Program-made: the position numbers and the translations under genes | DNA from: Verrucomicrobiia bacterium | GTDB lineage: Bacteria > Verrucomicrobiota > Verrucomicrobiia > Limisphaerales > Pedosphaeraceae | Assembly (NCBI GenBank): GCA_036268055.1 | Contig: DATAUW010000013.1 | Location: forward strand, 248,001-312,000 | Direction: 5' to 3' | DNA length: 64,000 nt | Part shown: positions 1,691 through 6,917 of the stretch, in pieces | Numbering within the stretch: position 1 is the first letter of the stretch | Layout: every line of letters starts with the position of its first letter | Notes under the pieces: generated by a model | The model's input: only the letters and a program-made list of their open reading frames with translations | Told to the model about the DNA's origin: nothing | The model's database searches: none

Positions 1691-1790
1691 CGTCCGCAGT
1701 CCCGCAGGGACGACAGAAATTTGCCCAGCAATTTATTGCTGGGTTGGATTCTCCTTCAATCCAAGTCCCGCCAGGGACAAAAGAAATCAG
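1664..1790 (+). repeat. Repeat unit B, copy 1 (about 127 bp, four hairpins)
   Basis: Nearly identical to 2025-2151, offset 361 bases. In order it carries GGCGGAGC-TGCC-GCTCCGCC (1672-1691), GTCCC-GCA-GGGAC (1699-1711) with a CGACAGAAAT tail, CCCAGCAA-TTTA-TTGCTGGG (1724-1743) and GTCCC-GCCA-GGGAC (1765-1778) with an AAAAGAAAT tail. Only the 25 bases between the third and fourth hairpins have diverged. Confidence 0.9.
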
Positions 1791-2024: not shown

Positions 2025-2151
2025 CATGGTAGGGCGGAGCTGCCGCTCCGCCGTCCGAAGTCCCGCAGGGACGACAGAAATTTGCCCAGCAATTTATTGC
2101 TGGGTTTTTATCGCCCTTCAAACCAAGTCCCGCCAGGGACGAAAGAAATCC
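2025..2151 (+). repeat. Repeat unit B, copy 2
   Basis: Partner of 1664-1790 with hairpins at 2033-2052, 2060-2072, 2085-2104 and 2127-2140. The first 80 or so bases differ at only one position; the linker before the last hairpin differs most. All four stems are intact in both copies. Confidence 0.9.
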
Positions 2152-4629: not shown

Positions 4630-4995
4630 ATGAAAAATTTCATCCTGATCGCTTTGCTATTTTCCGTCGCGCTCTCGGGTTGCGTCAGCAAATCCAAGTC
4701 GAACGCCAAAGCGCGCGCCGCCTTCTTCGCCGGCCAGAAACAAGGCGCCGCGATGCAAAACACCTCCAATTCCGTCTGGATCGTCGGCAACGTCCGCACG
4801 CCGCTCATTCCCTGGACCGAAGACCTTACCCTCACCAAAGCCCTCATCGCCGCCGAATATCTGGGCGCGGGCGACCCCAGCCAAATCGTCCTCTTGCGCA
4901 CCGGCCAGCCCACGGTTTTCGTCAGCCCCAAGCAATTATTGAACGGCTTCGACCTCCCCTTGCTCGCCGGCGACCGCATCGAAATCCGGCCCTGA
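4630..4995 (+). CDS. SLBB-domain lipoprotein
   Basis: 121 residues. The lipobox LSGC follows a short hydrophobic signal (MKNFILIALLFSVALSGC), so the mature protein should be lipid-anchored. After a basic linker the rest looks like one soluble-ligand-binding beta-grasp (SLBB) domain: VWIVGNVRTPLIPWTEDLTL, a helix (KALIAAEYLGAGD), then IVLLRTG and a closing LLAGDRIEIRP. SLBB domains are common in polysaccharide export proteins such as Wza; here the poly-export half is missing. The frame is open upstream to 4552, but the signal peptide fixes the start at 4630. Confidence 0.75.
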   Translation: MKNFILIALLFSVALSGCVSKSKSNAKARAAFFAGQKQGAAMQNTSNSVWIVGNVRTPLIPWTEDLTLTKALIAAEYLGAGDPSQIVLLRTGQPTVFVSPKQLLNGFDLPLLAGDRIEIRP

Positions 4996-5048: not shown

Positions 5049-5076
5049 TTGACTTTGTTACAGAAATTTGTATAAA
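5049..5076 (+). promoter_or_regulatory. Candidate sigma-70-type promoter
   Basis: TTGACT (5049-5054), a 16-base spacer ending in TTTG, then TATAAA (5071-5076). The 40 bases upstream are rich in A and T tracts, like an UP element. The expected start is near 5083, a few bases before the long hairpin. It is one of the best -35/-10 matches I found in the window's gaps. Confidence 0.5.
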
Positions 5077-5082
5077 TACTTT

Positions 5083-5167
5083 AGATTTTGGATTCGGGTG
5101 GCAGTACGTTTCTTCAGCGGGATTCCCCATCCCCACCTCCTTGGCGTCTGCTGCCCGAATCTTTTTT
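5083..5167 (+). ncRNA. Candidate small RNA / intrinsic terminator hairpin
   Basis: Bases 5091-5104 pair with 5148-5161 (12 Watson-Crick and two G.T pairs). After one bulge (5105), 5106-5110 pair with 5143-5147. An inner hairpin GGGAT/ATCCC sits at 5119-5133. T6 follows at 5162-5167. With the promoter at 5049-5076 the predicted transcript is about 85 nt, almost all stem and ending in a U tail. The simplest alternative is a terminator for the SLBB lipoprotein gene, whose stop is 95 bases upstream. No known RNA family was recognised. Confidence 0.45.
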
Positions 5168-5262
5168 AAATCCTCCATTCCCGTCATCAAAAAAATTTCC
5201 AAATAAATTATACAAATTCTCCGCCCCGTGGTGTTCATCAAGTAAACCGGCAGCAGACGCCA
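5142..5262. repeat. 14 bp perfect inverted repeat
   Basis: TGGCGTCTGCTGCC at 5142-5155 and its exact complement at 5249-5262, 93 bases apart. The left arm lies inside the 3' strand of the long hairpin at 5091-5161, so the two pairings exclude each other. Confidence 0.7.
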
Positions 5263-5315
5263 GGGAGTTGGATAAAATGATCAAGCCACGGATGGAACCC
5301 GGACGTTATTTTAAT

Positions 5316-6917
5316 TCATCGCTGTTCAAACGGCTTTATTTTTGCCGTTATATTGGTTCCAAAATTACCTTTGCCATTCCCATTCACGTAGGCTGTTCCC
5401 GTGCCTTGATAAGAAAAGCCGGTCGCGCTGATGGTGAAAAGCGAGTCGTATTGATCGTCCACCGGCGCCTTTTCTCCAATCAACGGCGCATTGGCCGGAA
5501 TGTCGCTCAAATTTCCCGTCTGTAAAAGTTGGTATCGCTGAAGCATGGCTCCATCAATCGGCGGATTCGCGTAAGGTTCCAGTTGTGAAATGTCCCCGGG
5601 TAATTGCCCGTTATTGCCCGCGATATAATTTGCCAAAGCTTCGCCGATCGCATTGGCAGACTTTCGTTTGGCATCGCGTCTTAATTGGCTTGTAGCCCGG
5701 TCAAAATCATCGTCTGTTTTCAAATCAGCGGTGTAATTCGCGCTTCGCAGCCACTCTTGGGCGGTTAGATATTGAAGTTCTGGAATTTTGTTATTGGGAT
5801 TTTGCTCCAGCCATTGTTTCAACTGTTTCACTTTTGTCGCAGCAACTTTGGCGGCTTGGTCTGCTGGGTCATTTGAATCACTTTGAGCGTTCGCAGTTCT
5901 TAAATGCGTCACTTCGCCGCGCAATTTCAAAAGCTCATGTTCATTCGCATTTGATTTCAATCGCGCATTTTCCGCGATCAATCCACCCACCAGGTTGGTC
6001 GCGTTATCCCGCTCGCGCTGCGATTGTTCAAGCTGGCCGTTCAATGAATTTTGCTGCTGCTGCAAACTTTGAATTTGTTTTTGCGATTCGGAATTTTGCT
6101 GCGCCTCAAAAATTCCCGCGCCGGCGATTACGGCCAGCGCGGCGGTGATGATTGTTTTTTGGAGTGTCGTCATGGCCAGGGTTTTGGTTGCGGTAATAAC
6201 TGCCGTTGTGGTGAAAGCTGTTCCTGAAAATAAGCTGGCAGAAATAGTCGCGGCCAATCCGGCGGGCGCGGCTTGAATGGAATTTGCCGACACCGCTTCC
6301 GCAATCGCCGCGCCGGAAATGGCCACGCCGCGTTTCATAAAAAACTGCCGCAGCTTTTCCATCGCGCGTTCAACCCGTTTGCGCGCCGCCCACTCTTGAA
6401 TGCCCAGCAGGGTCGCGGTTTCTGCCGCGCTTTTGTTTTCAAAGTAGCGCAAAGCCACCAGGGTGCGTTCCTTCTCGCTCAATCGCGCCATGGCTTCCTC
6501 CAAAAGCGGTGCGAGCCGTCGCCAGACACTTTCGGAATTGGAATCGTTTACAGTGGACATATACGCCTCCTGTTCGCGAAGTTGGCGGCTGGCCCTGGTT
6601 CGCATAAATTTCATGGCCGTAAACCGAGTGGTTTCGTAAAGCCAGCCGGTAAGAATGGTCGTTGCCCGCAAGCCCCCGGCCTTTTGGGCCAGAATGACGA
6701 AGACCGCCTGCGTCACGTCCTGCGCGTCCTGCGTATGGCTGGTGAACCGCAGCGCAACCGAATAGACAAGATTGATGTGCCGGCGAACCATTTCGGCAAA
6801 GGCCGGTTCCGAATTACGGTCGGCATATTCGCGCACCAAATCCATGTCGCTCACATCGGCCATTTGTTTATTATCCCAGCCGACCGTGGAAATTGGACAT
6901 TTATTTTCATTCTTCAC
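5316..6917 (-). CDS. ECF-type RNA polymerase sigma factor with membrane-anchored C-terminal extension
   Basis: 533 residues, about three times a normal ECF sigma. Residues 22-105 are sigma region 2 (DLVREYADRNSEPAFAEMVRRH, then DAQDVTQAVFVILAQKA) and about 133-190 are region 4 (LSEKERTLVALRYFE, ETATLLGIQEWAARKRVERA). An Ala/Ser/Thr-rich segment (198-245) leads to a transmembrane helix at about 252-270, a Gln-rich coiled coil (about 273-325) and a globular tail ending at 533. The tail should lie outside the membrane, if the topology is as expected. No anti-sigma gene is adjacent, so the tail may act as sensor or anchor. ATG 6863 is an alternative start. Confidence 0.85.
   Translation of the reverse strand: MKNENKCPISTVGWDNKQMADVSDMDLVREYADRNSEPAFAEMVRRHINLVYSVALRFTSHTQDAQDVTQAVFVILAQKAGGLRATTILTGWLYETTRFTAMKFMRTRASRQLREQEAYMSTVNDSNSESVWRRLAPLLEEAMARLSEKERTLVALRYFENKSAAETATLLGIQEWAARKRVERAMEKLRQFFMKRGVAISGAAIAEAVSANSIQAAPAGLAATISASLFSGTAFTTTAVITATKTLAMTTLQKTIITAALAVIAGAGIFEAQQNSESQKQIQSLQQQQNSLNGQLEQSQRERDNATNLVGGLIAENARLKSNANEHELLKLRGEVTHLRTANAQSDSNDPADQAAKVAATKVKQLKQWLEQNPNNKIPELQYLTAQEWLRSANYTADLKTDDDFDRATSQLRRDAKRKSANAIGEALANYIAGNNGQLPGDISQLEPYANPPIDGAMLQRYQLLQTGNLSDIPANAPLIGEKAPVDDQYDSLFTISATGFSYQGTGTAYVNGNGKGNFGTNITAKIKPFEQR

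Follow-up and report, generated by a model that had tools for sequence, protein, structure and literature searches.

A predicted small RNA gene with anti-Shine-Dalgarno letters in its loop in Limisphaerales and other Verrucomicrobiota

The hairpin and its surroundings

The hairpin described here lies in a 64-kb stretch of DNA on contig C13, referred to below as the window, in a genome of the order Limisphaerales (class Verrucomicrobiia, phylum Verrucomicrobiota; "order", "class" and "phylum" are used in this sense throughout). It stands between a putative lipoprotein gene and the convergent gene of a sigma-70 family protein, and consists of a promoter, a long stem interrupted by an internal loop, and a run of six T (Table 1). 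The promoter TTGACT-N16-TATAAA, the two helices of the long stem, the inner GGGAT/ATCCC hairpin and the T6 run had been proposed in a first-pass annotation; all of them can be read in the sequence at the coordinates of Table 1, and the stems and the inner hairpin also appear in the predicted fold. The anti-Shine-Dalgarno loop was absent from that annotation. The promoter carries 10 of the 12 consensus bases, and hexamer pairs with up to one mismatch per hexamer and a spacing of 16-18 occur three times on the two strands of the window, 5049-5076 included. A stock promoter scan did not list it because the scan requires T at the last -10 position. The ends of the predicted RNA were set 7 bases past the -10 element and at the T6 run, and the fold energy in Table 1 was computed for 5083-5170, where none of 200 shuffles folded as well.

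Table 1. Coordinates of the hairpin and of its neighbours in the window.
Feature	Position	Strand	Basis
-35 element TTGACT	5049..5054	+	sequence
-10 element TATAAA, spacer 16 bases	5071..5076	+	sequence
Predicted small RNA, about 85 nt	5083..5167	+	fold -36.7 kcal/mol, z -4.86; model matches
Outer stem, 5' arm (partner 5148-5161)	5091..5104	+	fold, covariation
Lower stem, continuing the outer stem, 5' arm (partner 5143-5147)	5106..5110	+	fold, covariation
Inner hairpin GGGAU-UCCCC-AUCCC (5119-5123/5129-5133)	5119..5133	+	fold, order alignment
Apical loop UCCCC	5124..5128	+	unpaired probability 0.99-1.0
Internal loop, 3' side, CACCUCCUU (anti-Shine-Dalgarno letters)	5134..5142	+	unpaired probability 0.66-1.0
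Lower and outer stem, 3' arms	5143..5161	+	fold, order alignment
T6 run, intrinsic terminator tail	5162..5167	+	sequence
Inverted half copy of the hairpin's 3' half	5249..5271	-	23 bases, 91%
Upstream neighbour, putative lipoprotein	4630..4995	+	no Pfam family above cut-off
Downstream convergent neighbour, sigma-70 family protein, regions 2 and 4	5316..6917	-	

The genome itself contains three full copies of the hairpin, one each on contigs C13 (the window's), C6 and C17. The earlier claim that the combination is not repeated elsewhere in the window needs correcting for the inverted half copy, which is probably a decayed remnant of the hairpin and had no covariance-model match when the genome was searched. 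Rfam, suggested at first pass as a check, did not place the hairpin: Rfam 15 gave nothing credible for it at either gathering or permissive thresholds, and no family reached its gathering cut-off in six loci from outside the order. The only gathering-level Rfam matches in the window are two of Acido-Lenti-1 (RF01687, 48.1 bits each), away from the hairpin at 1698-1743 (-) and 2059-2104 (-) and about 400 bases apart.

Distribution and conservation of the fold

A BLAST search with the 73-base hairpin as the query (E <= 0.001, some matches partial) found a match in 57 of 58 genomes, our own included; 32 genomes had one match and 25 had two or more, with a maximum of 11. A first covariance model, built from 89 order copies, had matches in 21 of the 288 phylum genomes searched, some of them from other classes. 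The refined model R2 detected the family in 168 of 196 order genomes (104 of 111 when only good-quality assemblies were counted). In a draw of 387 genomes from the phylum it matched 32: 27 from other classes, three from the class (two of these weak), a single order member and our own genome; the remaining 355 gave no match with filters that can lose weak matches. The hairpin RNA family is thus nearly universal within the order, with a patchy occurrence elsewhere. When 84,980 genomes, one per named species, were scanned for an exact 20-mer, 117 stretches were returned, and a simple motif test found the 5' half of the hairpin in 113 of them. Among the 80 stretches listed, 67 were titled Verrucomicrobia, Limisphaerales or Pedosphaera, four Akkermansia, four plain "bacterium" and five other phyla. 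We suspect that the titles from other phyla are mostly naming errors, with the exception of a beta-proteobacterial record (L093), in which, as in L103, the 20-mer is present and the hairpin absent. Viral contigs held no exact match to two hairpin patterns, and BLAST detected no match in plasmid and phage records.

A homologue of the lipoprotein (E <= 0.01) was not found beside the other copies in the 3-8 kb loci searched, nor was the MoCF_biosynth protein (E <= 1e-6) beside any other copy among the loci searched, and recognition of an orthologous locus by these flanking genes was rejected on these grounds. The neighbouring sigma factor recurred in 6 loci only, at 25-29% identity, and ScpA was rejected as a general flanking gene as it occurred in 16 of 146 loci.

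Covariation of the stems in relatives, which the first-pass annotation had named as a check, was observed at two depths. In the 89 order copies, 98.4% of the pairing cells hold a pair and double changes are seen at 9 of the 24 pairs; the double-change cells number 53, where shuffles give 16.2 (none of 500 as good). The fourth pair of the inner hairpin is G-C in 78 copies and A-U in 11. In 39 near and distant rows, aligned by fitting to the covariance model and hence leaning towards it, double changes occur in 17 of 24 pairs, with 140 cells against 38.8 in shuffles (0 of 500) and at most 42 in slid controls. Independently of any alignment, 18 other-class copies folded singly into the same long-stem architecture, with z from -3.85 to -7.33 and no more than 1 of 200 shuffles as good. 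A structure-free MAFFT alignment of these 18 copies, passed to RNAalifold, gave the inner hairpin, together with a two-pair helix that is doubtful; the outer stem was not recovered and the covariation term was almost nil, probably because the stem length varies among the copies. The variant L172 was left out of this set, as it has CUCCUUGGCG without ACCUCCUU.

Several copies depart from the common form. Tandem pairs, about 105-140 bases apart, occur in L144, L147, L126 and L174, and in the first three of these the second copy has a diverged yet compensated stem and a loop that reads UCCUCCUU. In the same class as the window, L172:1501-1565 (-) has a similar outer stem and keeps CUCCUUGGCG, with the C-rich inner hairpin replaced; it is without ACCUCCUU and has kept CUCCUU. 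A conserved small peptide as the reason for the conservation was rejected by inspection, as loop-length changes in copies of 72-74 nt shift the frame and the stem changes are compensatory.

Loop letters, promoter and tRNA-Asp

The 3' side of the internal loop, CACCUCCUU (in DNA letters CACCTCCTT), is present in all 30 order loci analysed, which are the best-scoring BLAST matches and no random draw, and the apical-loop pattern TTCC[CT]C in 28 of these 30. The shorter ACCUCCUU (in DNA letters ACCTCCTT) is found in 28 of 28 loci (18 + 10) from 27 other-class genomes, a constancy that the model and BLAST themselves favour. The loop's invariance in the 20-mer-scan loci is uninformative, since the loop is part of the search pattern. 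The loop letters stay constant while the stem letters change, and conservation extends beyond the pairing stretch to GGCG and UUCCYCA in most copies. The mean unpaired probability of ACCUCCUU is about 0.9 in the 30 near copies and 0.88-1.0 in the 18 distant ones, and the lowest-energy fold leaves the loop wholly open in 9 of 30 near and 16 of 18 distant copies.

These are also the letters of a 16S rRNA end. The 16S rRNA of an order member (G011) ends in GGATCACCTCCTTTCT, and CACCUCCUU has the letters of this tail. The tail pattern was seen in 1 of 13 genomes searched; a search of our own genome's contigs did not find it, and this assembly may lack it. The computed duplex with the site AAGGAGGUG is -14.8 kcal/mol for the RNA loop and -14.0 for the 16S tail, and for the longer site GAAGGAGGUGAUC the 16S tail (-21.1) beats the RNA (-16.5).

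Signals for the start and the end of a transcript accompany the hairpin. TTGAC stands 60-20 nt upstream of 23 of 30 order copies, the window's included, compared with 43 of 948 control segments (4.5%). The promoter, whose conservation in relatives had also been named as a check, recurs beside copies in unrelated surroundings. Four T at the 3' end were found in 20 of 30 order copies and in 109 of 3011 control 12-mers (3.6%). For the 18 other-class copies, the corresponding counts are 12 with TTGA[AC] upstream (controls 72 of 828, 8.7%) and 12 with four T (controls 99 of 4140, 2.4%). Among the marks of a gene for a trans-acting small RNA, the hairpin has a promoter of its own, as judged by its sequence, an intrinsic terminator at its 3' end (T6 in the window, T4 in the 20 near copies) and a conserved secondary structure with compensatory changes.

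The location of the copies was recorded at 134 distinct places, after L064 (cut by a contig end), L093 and L103 (20-mer only), and L001 and L004 (the window's place) had been dropped. At 79 of these, a tRNA-Asp gene lies downstream on the same strand, no more than 450 nt away and in 71 cases at 50-100 nt. At 78 of the 79 linked places a second TTGAC lies between the hairpin and tRNA-Asp, and therefore tRNA-Asp seems to have its own promoter. At 47 places, the window's among them, there is room and no tRNA-Asp, and a further 8 lack the room; the 19 loci scanned from outside the order contained no tRNA gene. In our own genome the C6 copy is linked to tRNA-Asp and the window copy is a paralogue lacking this linkage. 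The copy upstream of tRNA-Asp is the usual one, and probably the ancestral one. TTGAC within 45 nt is rarer at unlinked places (22 of 47) than at linked ones (66 of 79), and a group of unlinked paralogues (L117, L097, L116, L085, L077, L048 and L053) has no TTGACA and carries upstream a shared block resembling CCTAATTTC..CAGTTATTTGAAGCTTTT, which a different sigma factor might use as its promoter. These two observations suggest that the unlinked copies are sibling RNAs under different control.

Proposed function and alternatives

The gene-like anatomy, the conserved fold, the loop conservation and the distribution were all computed, and the hairpin is very likely an RNA gene; from these results we infer transcription, action in trans and pairing with mRNA. 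We favour, with moderate confidence, a small RNA gene whose loop pairs in trans with Shine-Dalgarno (SD)-like sites. A sigma-70-type promoter would drive an RNA of about 85 nt, formed by one long stem that ends in its own terminator. The stem would serve as a frame presenting two C-rich unpaired stretches, the internal-loop CACCUCCUU and the apical UCCCC. Of these, CACCUCCUU would pair with the SD stretch in those few mRNAs where one is present, thereby blocking ribosome access.

SD sites are scarce in the host. In 1.8 Mb of our own genome, GGAG precedes 66 of 1188 starts and 87 of 2773 positions inside genes, where the same script applied to 100 kb of E. coli gave 23 of 88 and 3 of 182; GGAGG shows a small real excess (29 of 1188 against 16 of 2773). 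The order loci pooled have no excess of GGAG (3.7% of 546 starts, 5.8% of 1202 inside genes), and the other-class loci may have one (14.8% of 54 starts, 5.8% of 139), few starts having been counted there. A minimum ORF length of 120 aa (150 in one scan) and a crude choice of start underlie all these statistics. Some Verrucomicrobia are named, in a passage of PMC10783764, among SD-scarce organisms that keep CCUCC. Pairing energies of -14 or lower with the loop were computed for 156 of 1273 segments at starts and 176 of 1271 inside genes, which is no enrichment, so that any target set must be small; the top match of the scan was the antisense strand of the genome's own C6 copy. A global SD blocker was rejected in view of this result. 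With an SD-scarce host and no target enrichment, the RNA may have few targets, or may act as a decoy for the factors that hold the 16S tail. A dependence on Hfq was rejected as well, our own genome being without a PF17209 match where 5 of 14 control genomes had one.

Two genes were compared across the order. Upstream of actD (alternative complex III), chosen because the copies in our own genome carry AAGGAGG, an SD-like site of -6 kcal/mol or lower is present in 20 of 25 order loci (L318-L342) and sits near the end of the upstream gene. A strong SD-like site also precedes rpsU (bS21), mostly with a TTG start, in 20 of 27 order loci, 3 of 30 having been incomplete, and several starts in the actD/rpsU comparison are plainly miscalled. 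The rpsU block, like GGAGAGGAAGTGA (L288, L289-L317, near base 1480-1500 on the gene's strand), comes close to matching the 16S tail's complement, in a setting where SD sites are scarce. bS21 was found in 28 of 28 order genomes.

The main rival to pairing with mRNA, which we regard as unlikely, is that the RNA acts as a putative decoy for proteins or 30S parts that hold the 16S tail and so tunes how free the anti-SD is; candidate partners might be the bS21-bS18-bS6 pocket, as in Bacteroidia, or tail-maturation factors. This would agree with an SD-scarce genome in whose order the 16S tail is nevertheless intact in one member, with loop letters equal to that tail, with conservation outside the stretch that would pair (GGCG and UUCCYCA in most copies), and with bS21 in all 28 order genomes and an SD-like block kept before rpsU. 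Sequestration of the tail has a precedent in the passages on Bacteroidia in PMC9976891 and PMC8710568; the main text of both, however, does not mention Verrucomicrobia, and tail occlusion in Verrucomicrobiota is for this reason an extrapolation. Equally doubtful is the idea that, in bacteria which have largely abandoned SD initiation, an old Verrucomicrobiota small RNA supplies free copies of the 16S tail, which would rival the ribosome's tail for mRNA or protein partners and thereby set the level of SD-dependent translation, with rpsU and actD among the last responders.

The linkage of 79 of 134 places to tRNA-Asp, 71 of them at 50-100 nt, would suit a leader or processing element of the tRNA-Asp transcript, which seems improbable given the second TTGAC at 78 of these 79 places, the 47 places with room and no tRNA-Asp (the window's included) and the 19 scanned loci outside the order without a tRNA. 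That the hairpin merely terminates the lipoprotein gene is very improbable: hairpin and T6 do lie on that gene's strand, about 95 bases past its stop, yet a promoter stands in between, the same hairpin and loop recur before tRNA-Asp or elsewhere in other genomes, no lipoprotein homologue (E <= 0.01) accompanies the other copies in their 3-8 kb loci, and the conserved loop letters are needless for termination. The preference for an independent small RNA over a terminator, already expressed at first pass, is borne out by covariation, by the promoter and T-run, and by the distribution. We give just as little credence to a mobile palindromic repeat (REP, MITE or cassette-like site) with no RNA function. 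One to 11 matches per genome, some partial, the tandem pairs in L144, L147, L126 and L174, the half copy at 5249-5271 and the 47 of 134 places away from tRNA-Asp are what such an element might leave behind; a single match in 32 of 58 genomes, 79 places fixed by tRNA-Asp, a promoter retained with the hairpin, compensated stem changes and no match in viral contigs (two exact patterns) or in plasmid or phage records speak against it.

Among known systems, the closest working likeness to the hairpin RNA is found in NfeR1 and AbcR, as the passages concerned in PMC10746234 and PMC8844928 portray them. These alpha-r14 "cuckoo" RNAs (NfeR1) and AbcR1/2 of alphaproteobacteria are described there as short structured RNAs with anti-SD motifs left unpaired, and in alpha-r14 the motif is called ultraconserved and the stem letters highly different; the AbcR motif types CUCCUCCC and UUCCCCUC resemble CACCUCCUU and UUCCCC of the hairpin RNA. 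In contrast, alpha-r14 RNAs, as depicted in those passages, have three hairpins each with CCUCCUCCC, whereas the hairpin RNA has one, with an internal-loop motif CACCUCCUU that equals the 16S tail, belongs to another phylum, has no Rfam match and resides in an SD-poor host. Membership in alpha-r14 was rejected owing to the number of hairpins, the other motif letters and the lack of an Rfam match. The RsaE/RoxS small RNAs of Firmicutes, in the descriptions considered here, are likewise C-rich and aimed at ribosome binding sites. Their C-rich motifs are single-stranded, and their fold is unlike that of the hairpin RNA. They also belong to another phylum, and no Rfam family, RsaE's included, matched the window hairpin.

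No description of the family was found in the open-licence literature searched by listings, nor in Rfam 15. Few small RNAs are known in the PVC part of the tree, a 2022 census giving 8 for the whole PVC group compared with 345 for Proteobacteria (PMC9029176), and this one is kept in most order genomes examined. It offers a handle on why SD-scarce lineages keep the anti-SD and on what still reads it, and the search model allows isolates and RNA-seq data to be screened. Bacteroidia also ignore SD sites yet keep the anti-SD, according to sections of PMC9976891, and their rpsU has an extended SD, with bS21 helping to hide the 16S tail (sections of PMC9976891 and PMC8710568). The control of rpsU is exerted there by the 16S tail itself together with bS21, and the main text of PMC9976891 nowhere uses the term "small RNA", which sets the Bacteroidia system apart from the hairpin RNA. 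As a separate observation, the SD-like block before rpsU in the order recalls the extended SD of Bacteroidia, as presented in parts of these two papers (PMC9976891, PMC8710568).
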